DNA of 37,039 nucleotides from Microthrixaceae bacterium (GTDB lineage Bacteria > Actinomycetota > Acidimicrobiia > Acidimicrobiales > Microtrichaceae), in assembly GCA_019694615.1 (NCBI GenBank), contig JAIBBP010000116.1, positions 1-37,039 on the forward strand. Direction: 5' to 3'. Position 1 is the stretch's first letter; every line of letters starts with the position of its first letter. The position numbers were made by a program, and so were the translations under genes. Positions 19,965-28,754 of the stretch are shown here, one piece after another. The notes beneath the pieces are model-generated. The model did not search any database, was not told the origin of the DNA, and worked only from the letters and a program-made list of their open reading frames with translations.

Positions 19965-21059
19965 TCAGCCGAGCACGGCCTGCCGAACCGACAGTGCGAC
20001 CCGACGCTTCGTTCGATCGACGGACAGGACTTTCACGTGGACGTTCTCCCCGGGCGTGACCACTTCGTCGGGCCGATAACCAGGAAGTTCGGTGAGTTCG
20101 CTCATGTGGACGAGCCCCACGATCTGTGTCCCGTCGAGCTGGGCGAACGCGCCGTACTCGACAACGCGGGTGATCGTGGCGGTGGTGATGGATCCGACCT
20201 CGACCGACAGGTAGGGGTCGGGCTGCAACTGTCGGAGGGACAGACCGATCCGTCGTTTGGAGCGATTGAGCTCGATGACGACAGCTTCGATGGTGTCCCC
20301 CACGTTCACGACGCCACGGAGCGGACCGACAGGTCCCCAGGACATCTCGGAGCGGTGGAGCAATGCCCGCATGCCCCCGACGTCGACTCGAACGCCATAG
20401 TCGACGAGCTCGACCACGGTGCCGGTCACACGCCCACCGACCGAGAGCGAGGAGAACACGTCGCGCTGAACCTGGCGTCGCTGCCGTCGCAGGAAGTCGC
20501 GTCGAGACACCACCACGCGGTCCTGGGCGCGATCGACCTCGGTCACCAGAACGGTGATCTCCTGGCCCACCAGAGCCGCCGGATCGACGGAGTTCGCGTC
20601 GTCGGGACGGGACTCGCCGACCATCGAAGCCGGCAGGAACGCTCGAAGTCCGAGGTCGACGATGAACCCGCCCTTGATGGCCTTCGAGACCGTGCCGGTC
20701 AGCGGTTCACCGCTCGCCAGCGCTTCCTCGACACGCTCCCACCTTGCGAGCTTGAGCGCCCACACCCGGCTAAGCACCACCCGTTGTCGCGGATCGTCTC
20801 TCGCGAGCAGTGCCGCCTGCAACGAACTGCCAGGAGAGGGCACCGGCTCATCGCCGAAGTCCGAGCGCGAGATCACGCCGGTTCGACCGTCGGCGAGCTT
20901 GACCTCGACCTCTGTGGCGGATGCACCGACGACCTCGACAGTCACGACCCGACCGATGGCGACCGCTGATCGCTCCGGGACGAGGTGGTCGGTGGGCACT
21001 GAGCCAGCCGGAGCCGACGCGCCGACAACGGGTCGCTGCGAGGCTGTTTCGTCAGTCAC
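19965..21059 (-). CDS. Four-domain S1 RNA-binding protein
   Basis: 364 residues with four S1-type OB folds at about residues 32-100, 117-188, 207-277 and 288-360; the last two are the most typical (GTVVELVDYGVRVDVGGM.ALLHRSEM and ITRVVEYGAFAQLDGTQIVGLVHMSEL). The overall plan is like ribosomal protein S1, but the N-terminus is not that of the housekeeping actinobacterial RpsA, so this is probably a paralogue. It lies 28 bases downstream of csrA on the same strand, at the end of the flagellar gene run, suggesting an RNA-binding role in the same regulon. GTG at 21059 avoids overlap with csrA. Confidence 0.82.
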   Translation of the reverse strand: MTDETASQRPVVGASAPAGSVPTDHLVPERSAVAIGRVVTVEVVGASATEVEVKLADGRTGVISRSDFGDEPVPSPGSSLQAALLARDDPRQRVVLSRVWALKLARWERVEEALASGEPLTGTVSKAIKGGFIVDLGLRAFLPASMVGESRPDDANSVDPAALVGQEITVLVTEVDRAQDRVVVSRRDFLRRQRRQVQRDVFSSLSVGGRVTGTVVELVDYGVRVDVGGMRALLHRSEMSWGPVGPLRGVVNVGDTIEAVVIELNRSKRRIGLSLRQLQPDPYLSVEVGSITTATITRVVEYGAFAQLDGTQIVGLVHMSELTELPGYRPDEVVTPGENVHVKVLSVDRTKRRVALSVRQAVLG

Positions 21060-21087
21060 CCCGCCAGTTTGCCCGAACGCGAGGACG

Positions 21088-21318
21088 TCAGGTCGGGCGG
21101 GGAGGGCGCGGAAGCTTCGGGAGGTCCGAGGTCGACGCGGATGCCGCTGCCTTGTTGGCCCGTGCGAGCTCTGCGTGGATCTCCTCGCGATGGATGGTGA
21201 TCTCTCGCGGTGCGTCGATCCCGATTCGTACGTGGTCACCGCGAATCTCCAACACCGTCACGGTGATGTTGCCGTTGATGACGATCGACTCGTTGGTGCG
21301 ACGCGAGAGAACCAGCAT
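21088..21318 (-). CDS. csrA: CsrA translational regulator
   Basis: 76 residues. The first 55 or so are a complete CsrA: MLVLSRRTNESIVINGNI, VTVLEIRGDHVRIGIDAP, then REITIHREEIHAEL. Both RNA-contact regions (LSRR of beta-1 and RIGIDAPREITIHR of beta-5) are intact. A Lys/Ala/Pro-rich tail of about 20 residues follows. CsrA dimers bind GGA-containing leaders of mRNAs such as flagellin and are titrated by FliW, encoded just upstream (fliW stop and csrA start are separated by one base, TGAGATG). Confidence 0.96.
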   Translation of the reverse strand: MLVLSRRTNESIVINGNITVTVLEIRGDHVRIGIDAPREITIHREEIHAELARANKAAASASTSDLPKLPRPPRPT

Positions 21319-21319
21319 C

Positions 21320-21745
21320 TCAACCGCCGTTCAGCGGAACTCGAGTCGACCACTGCATCTCCGACAGCACCACCTGGCGTCCGTGACGGGTGCGGGTGTT
21401 GACGACGATCGGACCGAGGAGGTTGGCGGTGATGTCGTCACCGTCGATCGTGACAAGACACAGCAACAACGTCTCGGACGGGCTGAGGAGCCCCAGCTCC
21501 GCAACGTCGTTGTCGTTGACCTCGGGCGCGTAGTCCGGGAAGAAGAAGTGCGGCGACGTCGCCAGGAACGCCAACGACGGGTCCTTCGCCGACTGCAACC
21601 AGCTGTAGGTGCCGTCGTCGTCGACCGGCACGATCGCGAACGAAGTCTCGTCCTCGAACCCGAGCAATCCGTGGGGAAGGGTCAACGTGGAGGTTTCGTC
21701 GACGGCCACGTCGCCGAAACGCTCGGAACTGATCAGCACGCTCAT
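21320..21745 (-). CDS. fliW: Flagellar assembly factor FliW
   Basis: 141 residues: LTLPHGLLGFEDETSFAIVPVDDDGTYSWLQSAKDPSLAFLATSP is the FliW hallmark, followed by VTIDGDDITANLLGPIVVN. FliW binds CsrA and is displaced by flagellin, coupling flagellin translation to export. The start is ATG at 21745, 4 bases after the flhF-like stop; its N-terminal beta strand (MSVLISSERFGDVAV) is as expected, and the longer frame is not. It forms a coupled pair with csrA. Confidence 0.95.
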   Translation of the reverse strand: MSVLISSERFGDVAVDETSTLTLPHGLLGFEDETSFAIVPVDDDGTYSWLQSAKDPSLAFLATSPHFFFPDYAPEVNDNDVAELGLLSPSETLLLCLVTIDGDDITANLLGPIVVNTRTRHGRQVVLSEMQWSTRVPLNGG

Positions 21746-21749
21746 GACA

Positions 21750-22925
21750 TTACCGACCACTTCGCGAGGAACGGTCGATGGCGACGCCCCGGCCGGAGGC
21801 GATGATGGTTGCCGCCCACATCTCCGGTGACGCCGGCCGGCCGTCAATGGTCGCAATCGGAGCGGACAGTCCGATGGCGAGCTCGGGCTCCGGGTGGAGG
21901 TTGGCATCGAGGAGGTCGATCGCGTCCACCCCGCCGATCGCTGCGACGCTCAGGTGTTGGTGGGCGACCAGCCGGCCGGTGTCGGCGGCGAATCGGACCT
22001 GTTCTGCCCGCAACCCGTCGAGCACAGCTCGGACCCACTCGTGGCCGAGCCTCCCCGGGAGCAGCTCAAGCACCACCACCGCCAGCGGAGTGCAACGGAA
22101 TCGGGCGGACGCCGCAAGGCGAAGGGCTTCGTCGGCTGTGGGTACCACGAGGTCGTCCGGCGGCGAGGCAACGATCACGTCATCGGTTGGGATGCCGCAC
22201 CGCTCGGCAAGCGCACCGGCGACGCGGGCGGCGTCGGACCGCGTACCGACGATCGCGACGATCCCGGCGGACGGGACCGTCGGTACCGGGCCGACCGAGT
22301 CGAACCCGGCGGCCAATCCCGCGACGTCGATCGCTCCGGCGAGCCCCGAGGCGCCGGGAGAAACGAACGCCGCAGGGATGAGCGTCGTCGAGGCGATCGG
22401 CCCCGACGACACGATCGGGGCGACAACATCGACACGGGTCGGCGCTACGACCGCTGCGGCGCCCCCCGTCGACGAAGCCAGCATGTCGGCTGCCAGAAGC
22501 GACCAGACCTCGTCGTCTGCACCGTCTCGACGGCTGGTGAGATCGAGGCCGAGGGCGCCCTCGACATCCTCGGGATCGATCTCGTTGAAGTCGAGCTCTG
22601 AATCGGGTCGGGGGTCGAGCACCTCCACACCGGGGGCAGTCGGGTGCGGGGTTCCGAACACGCTGACGCCGAGCGAGTTGAGGCGCGGCGATTCGTCGCC
22701 GTCCGGTTCGGCGACGGCTTCCGGTGCAGGAACAGCCACGGTGACCTGGAACAGCTCCCGAGCGAAGAACCCGGCGATGCCTCCGCGGCGGCAACGGTCA
22801 GCCGACGTGATCGTGACATCTGTTCCGTGCGCCGCGTGGATTCGGGCAAGGACTGCTTCGAGCGGGAAACCCTCGTAGTGCAGTTCACGCGTGGGCGCGG
22901 CAGCGTCCACGGCAGCGTCAGACAT
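21750..22925 (-). CDS. FlhF-like protein with degenerate GTPase domain
   Basis: 391 residues between flhA and fliW, the usual place of flhF. The N-terminus (HYEGFPLEAVLARIHAAHGTDVTITSADRCRRGGIAGFFARELFQVTV) matches the FlhF N-domain pattern ending in a glycine-rich GGxxGFFxRE. A long Pro/Ala/Asp-rich linker follows. The C-terminal part begins GIVAIVGTRSDAARVAGALAE, in the position of the SRP-GTPase P-loop, but GxxGxGKT is missing, so GTP binding is doubtful. FlhF normally sets flagellar number and position. ATG at 22925 overlaps the flhA stop. The name is withheld because the nucleotide site is lost. Confidence 0.65.
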   Translation of the reverse strand: MSDAAVDAAAPTRELHYEGFPLEAVLARIHAAHGTDVTITSADRCRRGGIAGFFARELFQVTVAVPAPEAVAEPDGDESPRLNSLGVSVFGTPHPTAPGVEVLDPRPDSELDFNEIDPEDVEGALGLDLTSRRDGADDEVWSLLAADMLASSTGGAAAVVAPTRVDVVAPIVSSGPIASTTLIPAAFVSPGASGLAGAIDVAGLAAGFDSVGPVPTVPSAGIVAIVGTRSDAARVAGALAERCGIPTDDVIVASPPDDLVVPTADEALRLAASARFRCTPLAVVVLELLPGRLGHEWVRAVLDGLRAEQVRFAADTGRLVAHQHLSVAAIGGVDAIDLLDANLHPEPELAIGLSAPIATIDGRPASPEMWAATIIASGRGVAIDRSSRSGR

Positions 22926-24966
22926 TGCTCTGGTCAAGGGTCACGGCTCCTAGGTCGTCGATGATGAGGTGGTCTGCGAGTTCGTCGTAGGACAGCACCG
23001 GCATGTGGGGCACCACGCGGCTCACGAAGTTCCGCATTGCCGGGCGGAGGCTGGGGGCGCACACCAGCACCGGCTCGTGGCCGTGCTGCTCGGCGTCACG
23101 CAACTGCCCGGCAAGAGCCCGTCCGACGCGCGCCGCGGTCTCGGGATCGAGCGCGAGGAACGACCCGGTCTCGTTGCGCTGCAACGCTCCGAGGAGGCCC
23201 TGCTCGACCAGCGGATCGAGTGTGATGACCGCGAGGTGGCCGTTGTTGGCACGGGACGCGCAGATCGTCGGGCCGAGTTGTTGTCGGACGGCTTCGACGA
23301 CCAGCTCGGTATCGCGGGTGACTCGGGCCCGCTCGCTGATCACCTCGAGGATGCGGGTGAGGTCGCGGATCGGAACCTGTTCGGCGAGCAACTGGTGCAA
23401 CACCTGTTGCGTCTCGGCAAGGCTGACCCCACATGCCGCCAAGTCCTCGACGACCGCGCCGTCGTGCTCGCGTACGAGCTCGACGAGGGCCTTCACGTCC
23501 TGCCGGCTGAGGAGCTGCGGAGCGTGTTCCCGGGCGATCTCGGCGAGGTGGGTGGTAACCACCGATGCACGATCAACGACCGTCGCGCCCATCGCTTCGG
23601 CGGACGCCCGGTGTTCAGGGCCGATCCACTTCGCCGGGAGGCCGAAGACCGGCTCGAACACCTCTGGACCGGGGAACACGCTGAGGTCGTCGGCGATGAC
23701 CAGGAGCCTCCCGGCCGGGGCGTGTCCCGTTGCGACCTCGACTCCGTGGATCCGAACGAGGTACGTGCCGAGCTCGAGCTCGACGTTGTCGCGGGTCCGG
23801 ACGGGAGGGATGACGATGCCCAACTCCTCGACGAGCTTCCGCCGCAGCGCCTGCACCCGATCCAGCAGGTCCCCGTTCGCCGCCGGGTCGACGAGGTCGA
23901 CGAGGTCGACGGCGAGCTCGAGACTGAGGGGCTCGATGCGAAGCGCCCGATTCAGTTCGGCGGGTGAGTTTGGATCCTCATCGATCTCGGCGACGACCGG
24001 GAGATCGAGCATCTCCCGTTCCATCGCCTCGGCCTCGTTACCGAGGCGCCGACCGAGCAACCAGGCACTCCCGCCCACGATGAGAAACGGGAGCTTTGGA
24101 ATGCCGGGGGCGACAGCGAACGCCATCATCGCCAGCCCACCCATCCGGAGCGCCTTGTGCTGGCGAGCGAACTGCGACGTCACGTCACTGCCGAGGTCGT
24201 CGGCGCTGGCCGCACGGGTGATGATGAGGCCCGACGAGATCGACACGAGCAACGCCGGGATCTGCGAGATGAGGCCGTCACCGACGGTGAGAAGGCTGTA
24301 CGTCTGCACTGCCTCGCCGATCGCCTGATCACGCTGGATCACCCCGACAAGCAGACCACCGATGAGATTCACCGCCGTGATCACGATGGCAGCGATCGCG
24401 TCGCCCTTGACGAACTTCGACGCACCGTCCATCGCTCCGTAGAAGTCGGCTTCCGCGGTGACCTCGTTGCGGCGGTGCCGAGCCTCGACATCGTCGATCA
24501 CTCCGGCGTTGAGGTCCGCATCGATGGCCATCTGCTTACCGGGCATGGCATCCAACGTGAAGCGGGCTGCGACCTCGGCGACGCGTGTCGCACCGTTGGT
24601 GATCACGACGAACTGGATCACGACGAGGATGAAGAACACCACGAGGCCGACGACCAGCGACCCGCCGATGACGAACGAGCCGAACGCCTCGATGACCTCG
24701 CCGGCATCGCCCTCGGCGAGAATGAGCCTCGACGTACTCACGTTCAACCCCAGCCGGAAGAGCGTGGCGATCAGCAGGAGCGACGGGAACGCCGACAGGT
24801 CGAGCGCCTTCGACACGTTCAGCGAGGCCAGCAGCATCAGGATCGCGAGGCCGAGGTTGCACGCCAGCAGCACGTCGAGCAGCACCGTCGGCACGGGGAT
24901 GACCATGAGGGCCACCACGAAAACGACGGCGAGGGGAAAGAGGCTGGCCCCGAGTTTCTTGGGCAT
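22918..24966 (-). CDS. flhA: Flagellar export gate protein FlhA
   Basis: 682 residues, full length for FlhA. Eight membrane segments occupy the first ~320 residues, with the conserved FRLGLNVSTSRLIL and the cytoplasmic FHIPEP-type loop (FTLDAMPGKQMAIDADLNAGVIDDVEARHRR, including the key Asp in AIDADLNAG). The C-terminal domain holds GPEVFEPVFGLPAKWI and the RVTRDTELVVEAVRQQLGPTIC block. FlhA is the nonamer that binds export chaperones in the flagellar type III apparatus. ATG at 24966 has GGAG about 10 bases upstream. Everything expected is present, so this gene shows no decay. Confidence 0.96.
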   Translation of the reverse strand: MPKKLGASLFPLAVVFVVALMVIPVPTVLLDVLLACNLGLAILMLLASLNVSKALDLSAFPSLLLIATLFRLGLNVSTSRLILAEGDAGEVIEAFGSFVIGGSLVVGLVVFFILVVIQFVVITNGATRVAEVAARFTLDAMPGKQMAIDADLNAGVIDDVEARHRRNEVTAEADFYGAMDGASKFVKGDAIAAIVITAVNLIGGLLVGVIQRDQAIGEAVQTYSLLTVGDGLISQIPALLVSISSGLIITRAASADDLGSDVTSQFARQHKALRMGGLAMMAFAVAPGIPKLPFLIVGGSAWLLGRRLGNEAEAMEREMLDLPVVAEIDEDPNSPAELNRALRIEPLSLELAVDLVDLVDPAANGDLLDRVQALRRKLVEELGIVIPPVRTRDNVELELGTYLVRIHGVEVATGHAPAGRLLVIADDLSVFPGPEVFEPVFGLPAKWIGPEHRASAEAMGATVVDRASVVTTHLAEIAREHAPQLLSRQDVKALVELVREHDGAVVEDLAACGVSLAETQQVLHQLLAEQVPIRDLTRILEVISERARVTRDTELVVEAVRQQLGPTICASRANNGHLAVITLDPLVEQGLLGALQRNETGSFLALDPETAARVGRALAGQLRDAEQHGHEPVLVCAPSLRPAMRNFVSRVVPHMPVLSYDELADHLIIDDLGAVTLDQSNV

Positions 24967-25123: not shown

Positions 25124-26323
25124 TCACGACGTCACCAGATCCCGCCCGGCCTCGGCCTCCGCTTGTTTCTCCAGCACCCGACGCCTCGCCGGCGGCACGC
25201 GCTCGAGAGCAGTCGCCCCCGACGGGGTCCAGGTGTCCGGAACATGCAGGTCGATCGCTCCGCCGTAGCTCCGCCGGCTGGCGCTCACGCGGTGGAGGAA
25301 CGCCAGCACCGTGGCGACCGCCTGGTACAGCTCCGGAGGAATCTCCTCACCAACCCGGCAGACGGCGTACAACGTCCGCGCGAGCGGCTTTGACTCCACG
25401 ATGGGCACCCCGCCGGCTGTTCCCGCCGCCCTGATCTTCATCGCCAACTCGTCGGCACCGCGGGCGATGACCTTCGGAGCACCAAGTGCCGGCTGATACT
25501 CAATGGCGACGGCGAAGTGCGTCGGGTTGGTGACGATCACGTCGGCGTTGGGGACGGCCGCCAACATGCGGTTGCGGGACATCTGGGCGCGCACCTGTCG
25601 TTGGCGCCCTTTGACGTGCGGGTCACCGTCGGATTCGCGTGCCTCCTGCTTGATCTCGTGCTTGCTCATCCGCATGTCGCGAATGTGCTTGTACCGCTGG
25701 AACGCGTAGTCGAACAGACCGACGACAAGCGCCGCCGCGGCGATAGCCCTCACAACGGCGAGCGTGGACTCCGCCGTGGTTCGTATGGCGAGGTGGGCCG
25801 AGCGAAACGGAGCGCTCATCAGATCCGCGGCCGTGCCCTGCACCATCGTCCAGGCGACCGCGACGATGATCGCAAGCTTCATCGTCGAGGTGAGCGTCGC
25901 CCACAGGCTCTGCACCGAGAACATCCGCTTGAGGCCCTGCAACGGGTTCAGTCGGGAGAACTTCGGCTTCAACGGCGTCCCGGTGAGCAGCAGACCGACC
26001 TGTGCGAGGTTGCCGACGATCGCGATCACGAGCAGAGCGACCATCGCCGGGATGATCGCGCCGAGCATCGCGATGAACGATCGACTCACCGCCCCGGTGA
26101 GCAGCCGCTCGTCGGGGTCACGGGCGATGTCGAGCATCATGCGGAGCGTCGACGTGACCGCCGCTCCGGATCGGTTGATCATGCCGGGCATCACGACCGT
26201 CGCGACGAGAACCGACAGCCACGTGACAAGGTCCTCGGACCGAACGACCCGACCTTCCTTCCGCGCTTCCTTCTTCCGCTTGGCGGTCGGGGCCTCGGTC
26301 TTGCTGTGCTTGTCGCCGGACAC
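25124..26323 (-). CDS. flhB: Flagellar export switch protein FlhB
   Basis: 399 residues. A basic N-terminus (KTEAPTAKRKKEARKEGRVVRSEDL), four membrane segments and the autocleavage motif NPTH at residues 266-269 within VIVTNPTHFAVAIEY are all present; the C-terminal cytoplasmic domain (APKVIARGADELAMKIR, IPPELYQAVATVLAFL) is complete, with a tail about 40 residues longer than usual. FlhB switches export specificity from rod/hook to filament subunits. It starts 6 bases after the fliR remnant stop. The 157 bases between flhB and flhA hold no gene that I can support. Confidence 0.96.
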   Translation of the reverse strand: MSGDKHSKTEAPTAKRKKEARKEGRVVRSEDLVTWLSVLVATVVMPGMINRSGAAVTSTLRMMLDIARDPDERLLTGAVSRSFIAMLGAIIPAMVALLVIAIVGNLAQVGLLLTGTPLKPKFSRLNPLQGLKRMFSVQSLWATLTSTMKLAIIVAVAWTMVQGTAADLMSAPFRSAHLAIRTTAESTLAVVRAIAAAALVVGLFDYAFQRYKHIRDMRMSKHEIKQEARESDGDPHVKGRQRQVRAQMSRNRMLAAVPNADVIVTNPTHFAVAIEYQPALGAPKVIARGADELAMKIRAAGTAGGVPIVESKPLARTLYAVCRVGEEIPPELYQAVATVLAFLHRVSASRRSYGGAIDLHVPDTWTPSGATALERVPPARRRVLEKQAEAEAGRDLVTS

Positions 26324-26329
26324 GTTGCG

Positions 26330-26668
26330 TCACCCCCTCCGGACGAGCGCGTGCATCATCTCGAGCGCGTCCTTGACGAGCTGTGCCGACACATACGGAA
26401 TCAGCGGCAGCGCCGCTCCAAGCAGCATGAACATGACGAGGCTCTTGGCCCCGAAGCCGAGCACCATGACGTTCAGCTTTGGGGCGGCACGGCTAGCGAG
26501 GCCCAGAAGGATCTCCGTGACGAACAGCGCCCCGAGGATCGGAGCGCCGACCTGGAGCGCAGCGATCAGGAACGCCTGAATGTCGTGCACGAGCAGGGTG
26601 CCGACACGATCGATCCTGAATCCGCTCGCCGGCGACAACTCGAACGTCTTGGAGAGGTCATAGAGCGC
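26330..26668 (-). pseudogene. fliR: fliR, 3' part only (5' half missing)
   Basis: About 110 residues clearly belong to the C-terminal half of FliR: LYDLSKTFELSP, then IQAFLIAALQVGAPILGALFVTEILLGLASRAAPKLNVMVLGFGAKSLVMFMLLGAALPLIP and a short amphipathic end. FliR is normally about 250-260 residues, so the first ~140 residues with the first membrane segments are gone. The open frame continues upstream to 26944, but that part is antisense to fliO and has no FliR character or membrane segment. The gene is otherwise in its normal place before flhB. Without its N-half FliR cannot complete the FliPQR export gate. Confidence 0.8.
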
Positions 26669-26956
26669 AAGCCGCTCTCTCGGAACTCCTCGATCGCCAT
26701 CGTCCGCGTCGGCAACGAGACGCTCGCCGTCGGAATCACCGAGAACTCCGTGTCGCTGCTCGGACCCGCCGACGTTCCCGACCTCGATCTCCCGGTCGTC
26801 GAACAGAGCGCCGAACAGAGCGCCGCGCCAACCAACGGCCGCCTTCACGATGTCGCCGTCGACCTGAGAGCAGACCGAACTGCCGAGCCCGAAGGCCGCG
26901 GCAGGAACCTCATAGACACGCTTCGCGACATGACCGTCCGTCACGTCCCCGGTTGA
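26660..26956 (+). pseudogene. fliO: fliO, 3' part only (5' end missing)
   Basis: The translated stretch VIERKPLSRNSSIAIVRVGNETLAVGITENSVSLLGPADV followed by a variable linker and the end NLIDTLRDMTVRHV is the conserved C-terminal domain of FliO, and fliP follows 30 bases downstream as usual. The N-terminal membrane segment of FliO is missing: upstream DNA in this frame is antisense to fliR. No start codon with a ribosome-binding site is apparent at the junction. FliO assists FliP assembly. Confidence 0.72.
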
Positions 26957-26986
26957 GCACCGCTTCCACCCGCTGGATCACCGACC

Positions 26987-27910
26987 ATGCCCGCCTCACC
27001 TTCACGCACGGCCGAGCCGCACCGCGCAGCCGGACCAGGACACCGGTCGCTGCGCCCCCGCGCGCTCCCGTTGCTGCTCGTCATCGCGTCGGTGTTGGCA
27101 ACGTGGTCGACCGCCCCGACGAGTGCCTCAGCCGCGCCGGCCCAGACGGTTCCCGCTGTCACCGTTCCGACTGTGCCGGCGCCGACGACGACAACGACCG
27201 ACGACGGTGACAACGTCAGCATCGATCTCGACCTCGGTGAGGTAGCGCGGGACTCCAACCCGACCGCTTCGGGCGAGGAACGCAAACCGTCGAAGAGCAT
27301 CGTCATCTTCCTGCTGCTCACGCTGCTGTCGATCGTACCGTCGCTCCTGATCTGCATGACCAGCTTCACGCGCATCGTCGTCGTGCTGTCGATTGCCCGC
27401 AACGCCATCGGCCTTCAGTCCATCCCGCCCAACCAGGTAATCACCGGACTCGCCGTCTTCCTGTCGTTGTTCGTCATGGCTCCAACGCTGAAGGAGATGA
27501 ACGACCAAGGCCTCCAGCCCTACCTCCGCGGCGACATCAAACAGTCCGAGGCGCTGAAAGCAGCCGAGAAGCCCCTCAAGAAGTTCATGCTCGCGAATAC
27601 CCGGCAGACCGAACTGAACCTGATGATCGACGCCGCTGATCAGGAGCGGCCGAAAGAGCCCGAGCAGTTGTCGCTCACGACCATCATCCCGGCGTTCATC
27701 CTGTCCGAGCTGAAGTCGGCGTTCATCATCGGCGTGATGGTGCTTCTGCCGTTCCTGATCATCGACCTGATCGTGTCGAGCGGGCTCATGAGCCTGGGCA
27801 TGATGATGCTTCCACCGGTCTTCGTCTCGCTGCCGTTCAAGATCCTGTTGTTCGTCATGGTGGACGGCTGGGCGCTGATCGCCCACGCCCTGATCGCCAA
27901 CTACCACTAG
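26987..27910 (+). CDS. fliP: Flagellar export gate protein FliP
   Basis: 307 residues. A long basic N-terminal extension precedes a signal-like hydrophobic segment (about 27-50) and a Thr/Pro/Val-rich linker; the core then runs VIFLLLTLLSIVPSLLICMTSFTRIVVVLSIARNAIGLQSIPPNQVITGLAVFLSLFVMAPT, ending with MMMLPPVFVSLPFKILLFVMVDGWALI. These are the FliP signature blocks. FliP pentamers with FliQ and FliR form the export channel. ATG at 26987 is the most upstream reasonable start; a later start closer to the signal segment is possible. fliQ follows 9 bases later. Confidence 0.95.
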   Translation: MPASPSRTAEPHRAAGPGHRSLRPRALPLLLVIASVLATWSTAPTSASAAPAQTVPAVTVPTVPAPTTTTTDDGDNVSIDLDLGEVARDSNPTASGEERKPSKSIVIFLLLTLLSIVPSLLICMTSFTRIVVVLSIARNAIGLQSIPPNQVITGLAVFLSLFVMAPTLKEMNDQGLQPYLRGDIKQSEALKAAEKPLKKFMLANTRQTELNLMIDAADQERPKEPEQLSLTTIIPAFILSELKSAFIIGVMVLLPFLIIDLIVSSGLMSLGMMMLPPVFVSLPFKILLFVMVDGWALIAHALIANYH

Positions 27911-27919
27911 GCCGCTGTC

Positions 27920-28189
27920 ATGACCGACGCGTCGATCACCGAAATCGGCATCCAAGCCATGGTCCTCACCATGAAGCTCTCTGCCCCCGTTCTGCTCACC
28001 GCTCTCGCCGTGGGCATCCTCATCGGCATGGTGCAATCAGCCACCCAGTTGCAGGAGCCGACCATCGCGTTCGTGCCGAAGTTCGTCGCGATGGCTGTCG
28101 TGCTGCTCATCTGCGGTAACTGGATGCTCTCGGAGGCGGTGGGCTTCACCCATTCCCTCTTCGACCAGATCCCCAAGATGCTGTCCTGA
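27920..28189 (+). CDS. fliQ: Flagellar export gate protein FliQ
   Basis: 89 residues, two membrane segments (about 16-38 and 53-73): PVLLTALAVGILIGMVQSATQLQEPTIAFVPKFVAMAVVLLICGNWML is the FliQ core, including the polar QSATQLQE loop. The size is the family norm. fliR would normally follow; here the next gene is inorganic pyrophosphatase, and the 64 intervening bases contain no fliR sequence. Confidence 0.95.
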   Translation: MTDASITEIGIQAMVLTMKLSAPVLLTALAVGILIGMVQSATQLQEPTIAFVPKFVAMAVVLLICGNWMLSEAVGFTHSLFDQIPKMLS

Positions 28190-28201
28190 ACGGATGGGCC
28201 A

Positions 28202-28231
28202 GCGGCTCCTCGTCTGGGGCCGTCGAGCCGC
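28202..28231. terminator. Weak hairpin after fliQ
   Basis: GCGGCTC (28202-28208) and GAGCCGC (28225-28231) could pair across a 16-base loop, 13 bases after the fliQ stop. Short arms and no T-tract make this a weak candidate. Confidence 0.25.
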
Positions 28232-28238
28232 GCGCCAG

Positions 28239-28244
28239 TAGGGT
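28239..28244 (+). promoter_or_regulatory. Candidate -10 box, leaderless ppa promoter
   Basis: TAGGGT ends 9 bases before the ppa ATG at 28254; no ribosome-binding site lies between. It is the same hexamer as at 8719. Confidence 0.4.
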
Positions 28245-28253
28245 TGCCGCCCT

Positions 28254-28754
28254 ATGACTGACGAGTTCCGAGTCGAGACCGTGATCGAGATCCCCCGCGG
28301 ATCGCGCAACAAGTACGAGATGGACCACGAGACCCGCAAGATCTGGCTCGACCGCTACCTCTACACCGCCACCACCTACCCGGCCGACTACGGCTTCTTC
28401 GAGAACACGCTCGGAGGCGACGGCGACCCGCTCGACGCGCTCGTCCTCATGAACGAATCGACCTTTCCCGGTTGCCACCTGTGGGCACGACCGGTCGGCG
28501 TCGTGCACATGGCCGACGAAGCAGGCGACGACGCCAAGGTGCTGTGTGTCCTCGCCGGCGACCCGCGTTGGGACCACATTCAGGACATCGACGACGTGAA
28601 CCCCGCGCTGCTCGACGAGATCGGCCACTTCTTCGAGGTGTACAAGGCCCTCGAGCCGAACAAGGCGTCGGAGATCGGGCGGTGGGGCGACGCTGAGGCC
28701 GCACGGACCGAGATCATCGAGGCCCAGCAGCGGTACGCCGACCAGCAGCACTGA
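28254..28754 (+). CDS. ppa: Inorganic pyrophosphatase (family I)
   Basis: 166 residues, the usual size of bacterial soluble PPase. Motifs: VIEIPRGSRNKYEMD, LYTATTYPADYGFFENTLGGDGDPLDALVL, which contains the signature DGDPLDALV with the three metal-binding Asp, and VLCVLAGDPRWDHIQDIDDV. It hydrolyses PPi to drive biosynthetic reactions in the cytoplasm. A TAGGGT box 9 bases before the ATG suggests a leaderless mRNA. It is followed 14 bases later by the membrane spermidine-synthase-like gene. Confidence 0.96.
   Translation: MTDEFRVETVIEIPRGSRNKYEMDHETRKIWLDRYLYTATTYPADYGFFENTLGGDGDPLDALVLMNESTFPGCHLWARPVGVVHMADEAGDDAKVLCVLAGDPRWDHIQDIDDVNPALLDEIGHFFEVYKALEPNKASEIGRWGDAEAARTEIIEAQQRYADQQH

Follow-up and report, generated by a model that had tools for sequence, protein, structure and literature searches.

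The window, which is the whole of contig C243 (37,039 bases), carries the two outer ends of a flagellar gene cluster joined directly to each other within two truncated genes, fliR and fliO. A single large deletion, in which the middle of the cluster would have been lost in one step (about 23 kb, judged from the relative G008), is the probable explanation of this arrangement, with a probability of about 0.8 on the basis of sequence comparison.

The source genome is a draft assembly of 284 contigs totalling 3.76 Mb, with a completeness of 89.25% and a contamination of 1.02%. Its DNA is GC-rich, and the nearest named sequences to the FlhA of the window are mostly from Actinomycetota, so that the organism is probably an actinobacterium. 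Among GTDB contigs, no closer relatives were found with FlhB as query, and FlhA gave distant matches only, at most about 54% identical. FliR is present in 9 of the 61 genomes searched, the window's own being counted. The closest flagellated relative among the genomes compared is G008, a member of the same family with an FlhA that is 79% identical.

Truncation of fliR and fliO

Profile matches and tblastn confirm that the 5' half of fliR and the 5' end of fliO are cut at one point, on opposite strands and with no gap, as was claimed in the first-pass annotation (Table 1). The tblastn alignments of the two remnants to G008 begin immediately at 26656|26657, one on each side, and there are no inserted bases. 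The single shared point proposed earlier was therefore real, although it lies about 8 bases to the left of the position near 26665 where it had been placed. The fliR remnant matches PF01311 at positions 136-228 of 230 only (62 bits) and is 60% identical to the C-terminal half of G008 FliR, in an alignment that starts at window position 26656 and at G008:C3:25192 (tblastn). The fliO remnant is 40% identical to G008 FliO, from G008:C3:2196 (tblastn).

Table 1. Features around the fliR-fliO junction, in window coordinates (G008:C3, contig 3 of G008)
Feature	Position	Strand	Remarks
S1 RNA-binding domain gene, left-hand flank	19968..21257	-	PF00575; 65% identical to G008:C3:32067-31078; adjoins csrA in G008 too
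csrA	21091..21330	-	PF02599, E 2e-24
fliW	21323..21949	-	PF02623, E 5e-35
ORF between flhA and fliW	21750..22937	-	no Pfam match; N- and C-terminal parts homologous in G008, same place
flhA, open, full length	22918..24966	-	PF00771 1-655/657; 79% identical to G008
flhB, open	25124..26323	-	PF01312 2-334/335; NPTH autocleavage motif
fliR remnant, 3' half	26330..26656	-	approximately 108 3'-terminal codons; lacks its own FliR start codon
Probable deletion junction 26656|26657	26654..26659	.	GAG(G), about 3-4 bases fitting both fliR (antisense) and fliO
fliO remnant	26657..26956	+	lacks the 5' end encoding the membrane anchor; PF04347 24-80 of 91, E 6e-9
fliP, open, full length	26987..27910	+	PF00813 1-191/191, E 1.6e-77
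fliQ, open, full length	27920..28189	+	PF01313 2-73/74, E 2.1e-25
ppa, right-hand flank	28254..28754	+	67% identical to G008:C3:599-102; directly after fliQ in G008 too

The stretch of approximately 93 residues that the minus-strand frame encodes upstream of the junction bears no likeness to FliR. Aligned to an intact FliR it reaches a score of 28 at best, whereas shuffled sequences average 27 with a maximum of 42, and the truncation of fliR withstands this comparison. The FliR homology had been taken to begin at LYDLSKTFEL. The C-terminal half is indeed FliR, but the 'LALYD' part is probably antisense to fliO, because the glycine that precedes the conserved leucine of FliR in 7/7 aligned relatives is an aspartate here. 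For the same reason the fliR-derived stretch is placed, from the alignment, as ending at or just past 26656. Nothing resembling the N-terminal half of FliR was found elsewhere in the window's genome at E values up to 10, which speaks against the earlier suggestion of a lineage with an intact fliR at another locus. Of the components of the flagellar type III export gate, FliP, FliQ, FlhB and FlhA are present at full length in this genome (Pfam), and a full-length FliR was not found.

The minus-strand frame remains open across the junction into the antisense of fliO, forming a fusion ORF of 204 residues (26330-26944) with a GTG start at 26944. In GC-rich DNA, antisense frames often stay open. 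The FliR model also gives a weak match (21 bits, below the cut-off) at the fliQ site of another relative, G051:C6:85246-85467, which agrees with a remote resemblance between FliQ and the C-terminal part of FliR.

At the junction itself, GAG at 26654-26656 fits both a conserved acidic residue of FliO and, on the other strand, a leucine of FliR. About 3-4 bases could thus have been common to both breakpoints, as judged from residues in relatives, of which the closest, G008, belongs to a different genus from the window's organism and does not give the exact breakpoint sequences of the ancestor. Such a junction would fit a deletion by illegitimate joining, and not recombination between long repeats or the collapse of a repeat by the assembler; the latter is unlikely since the overlap is far shorter than the assembler's word length. 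Composition is alike on both sides: the tetranucleotide correlation is 0.984, compared with 0.978-0.985 when the contig is divided elsewhere, and base make-up is equal too.

Gene order in G008 and other relatives

On contig 3 of G008, ppa, fliQ, fliP and fliO occupy the minus strand from 102 to 2196, and fliR, flhB, flhA, an unnamed ORF, fliW and csrA lie on the plus strand between 24.7 and 31.0 kb, with the S1-domain gene next. The window keeps both ends of this cluster, unchanged in order, orientation and outer neighbours. The homology ends in fliO at G008 position 2196 and in fliR at 25192, so that 22,995 bases are absent relative to G008; both flanks are collinear with this intact relative, and the middle alone is missing. 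The position of ppa 64 bases after fliQ, reported earlier and confirmed here, is explained by the same adjacency in G008.

Seven further relatives (G004, G022, G011, G055, G047, G051 and G035) carry these genes in the usual one-strand order (tblastn). That order might suggest an inversion or a multi-step rearrangement from fliO-P-Q-R-flhB-flhA, with separate losses of the 5' parts of fliR and fliO. This is very improbable, as G008, the closest relative by FlhA identity, is already divergent with the same outer neighbours; one step therefore suffices and an inversion is unnecessary. The first-pass annotation had taken the one-strand order as its starting point, which left the geometry unexplained, and that premise does not hold for the nearest relative. 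Its view that the locus is not a simple inversion is supported, since a single deletion of about 23 kb from a layout like that of G008 explains everything. By comparison of gene order, a divergent cluster of this type was most likely already present in the ancestor.

Missing flagellar genes

In G008 the region between the two arms runs from fliO through fliN, fliM, fliL, motB, motA, flbD, flgE, flgD, fliK and an SLT + NlpC/P60 cell-wall enzyme (Pfam) to fliI, fliG, fliF, fliE, a rod-type gene, fliS, fliD and flagellin, with flgK and flgL on the opposite strand. Searches of the window's genome, an 89% complete draft, for Flg_bbr_C, FliMN_C, Flagellin_N, YscJ_FliF, FliG_C, Flg_hook and the N-terminal half of FliR found none of the seven, and the identical searches succeed in G008. 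A complete flagellar gene set is thus absent from this assembly (FliF, FliG, FliM/FliN, flagellin, rod and hook proteins, and FliK), with matches in G008 and G004. Within the family, FliF is found in G004 and G008 only. The earlier statement that the other export genes look intact holds for flhA, flhB, fliP and fliQ, all of which were confirmed to be open, but fliI, fliF, fliG and the remaining flagellar components belong to the missing block.

Two other drafts, G011 and G022 (one genus, each 75% complete), possess fliO-P-Q-R-flhB, and FliF, FliG and FliK are absent from their assemblies. Their contigs end inside the flagellar cluster, in G022 within fliM, and incompleteness is probably the cause. 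Because the window's genome is also a draft, the absence of genes is by itself a weak argument, and it is the bridged junction that carries the case for a deletion.

These observations bear on whether the junction is an artefact of assembly or library preparation, such that the organism has an intact cluster, its 23-kb core was left unassembled or unbinned, and a chimeric read joined the ends. The 89% completeness of the genome and the lack of core genes in two other drafts would agree with this reading. However, both sides come from one locus, in the expected orientation and with equal composition, and the overlap at the join is about 3-4 bases only. An assembler would normally have extended fliR and fliO into their true sequence, and the N-terminal half of FliR was found on no contig. 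The contig of the window, unlike those of G011 and G022, does not end inside the cluster but bridges two cut genes that are also the boundaries of the block in G008; a chimeric read would have had to displace the true sequence on each side, with 23 kb remaining unassembled. The artefact raised in the first-pass annotation is therefore less likely than a deletion, and we consider it improbable, with some chance still left to it. A chimera of two different organisms was also considered and received no support from composition or synteny.

Surviving genes and age of the loss

The surviving reading frames are open, and counts of branch-specific residue changes indicate no excess of change in the window: 123 in the window versus 179 in G008 with G022 as outgroup, and 112 versus 146 with G004 as outgroup. 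With open frames and no acceleration of change in the export genes that are left, the loss looks recent and the remnants appear to have had no long period of unconstrained evolution. The earlier description of the locus as a recent rearrangement is borne out in this respect.

The same four open genes, changing no faster than in G008, could be read as a remnant kept for a purpose, FlhA, FlhB, FliP and FliQ forming with a shortened FliR a working export gate or some other membrane complex. We regard this as highly unlikely: more than half of FliR and the anchor region of FliO are gone, the cluster lacks FliI, FliF and FliG, and a recent deletion accounts for the intact frames equally well. There is likewise very little chance that a remnant without a flagellum, containing the C-terminal half of FliR, possibly as the 204-residue fusion with the antisense of fliO, works as a minimal membrane export gate.

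A promoter scan of 26300-28300 gave nothing above chance, which counts for little, as the promoters of such organisms may depart from the consensus. The ORF at 21750-22937 has homologues at the same place in G008 and other relatives, and its N-terminal 'YEGFPLEAVLARV' part is conserved. At the end of the contig (36938-37039, minus strand), 34 residues match the final part of a long frame beyond the S1 gene of G008 at 67% identity, and the local order there differs from that of G008.

Proposed course of the deletion

Under the deletion reading, the ancestor would have possessed one cluster with two divergent arms, fliR-flhB-flhA-X-fliW-csrA and fliO-fliP-fliQ-ppa. Between them would have lain flgK, flgL, flagellin, fliD, fliS, rod and basal-body genes, fliE, fliF, fliG, fliI and fliK, together with flgD, flgE, flbD, motA, motB, fliL, fliM and fliN. 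A break within fliR and another within fliO would have been sealed to each other, sharing a few bases at most, with loss of the whole intervening segment. The cell would no longer be able to make a flagellum, and the leftover export genes would be non-functional remnants, probably deprived of the upstream promoters of the lost arms; that they have not yet decayed would point to a recent loss. We infer that the deletion sits in the real chromosome, that its ends were joined in this manner, and that the organism is non-motile.

Relation to known losses of motility

In Xanthomonas fuscans subsp. fuscans 4834-R, 34 contiguous flagellar genes are deleted and the strain is non-motile (PMC3826837). 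The window resembles that strain in the loss of a contiguous block with rod, hook and filament genes next to export genes that are retained at its edge. The site in X. fuscans 4834-R holds a complete insertion sequence, ISXfu2 (PMC3826837), whereas in the window the cut genes are joined directly with no insertion element.

For Actinobacteria, passages of PMC10746217 describe how descendants of a motile ancestor lost flagellar genes massively and repeatedly, and how almost all flagellar genes lie in one big cluster in actinobacterial genomes. The window's family fits the pattern described in these passages, with FlhA in 5 of 33 genomes. The loss treated in them is at the level of lineages (PMC10746217), whereas the locus in the window would be one event caught with its breakpoints. 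The deletion is a known kind of event and an ordinary route of motility loss, not a new system.

The locus also documents a divergent cluster layout common to the window and G008, in which fliR-flhB-flhA stands apart from fliO-fliP-fliQ. Neither this layout nor a one-step loss alters the current understanding of flagella. If the junction is real, a probable actinobacterial lineage would be seen losing motility in a single event whose two breakpoints are still visible and whose leftover genes have not yet decayed.
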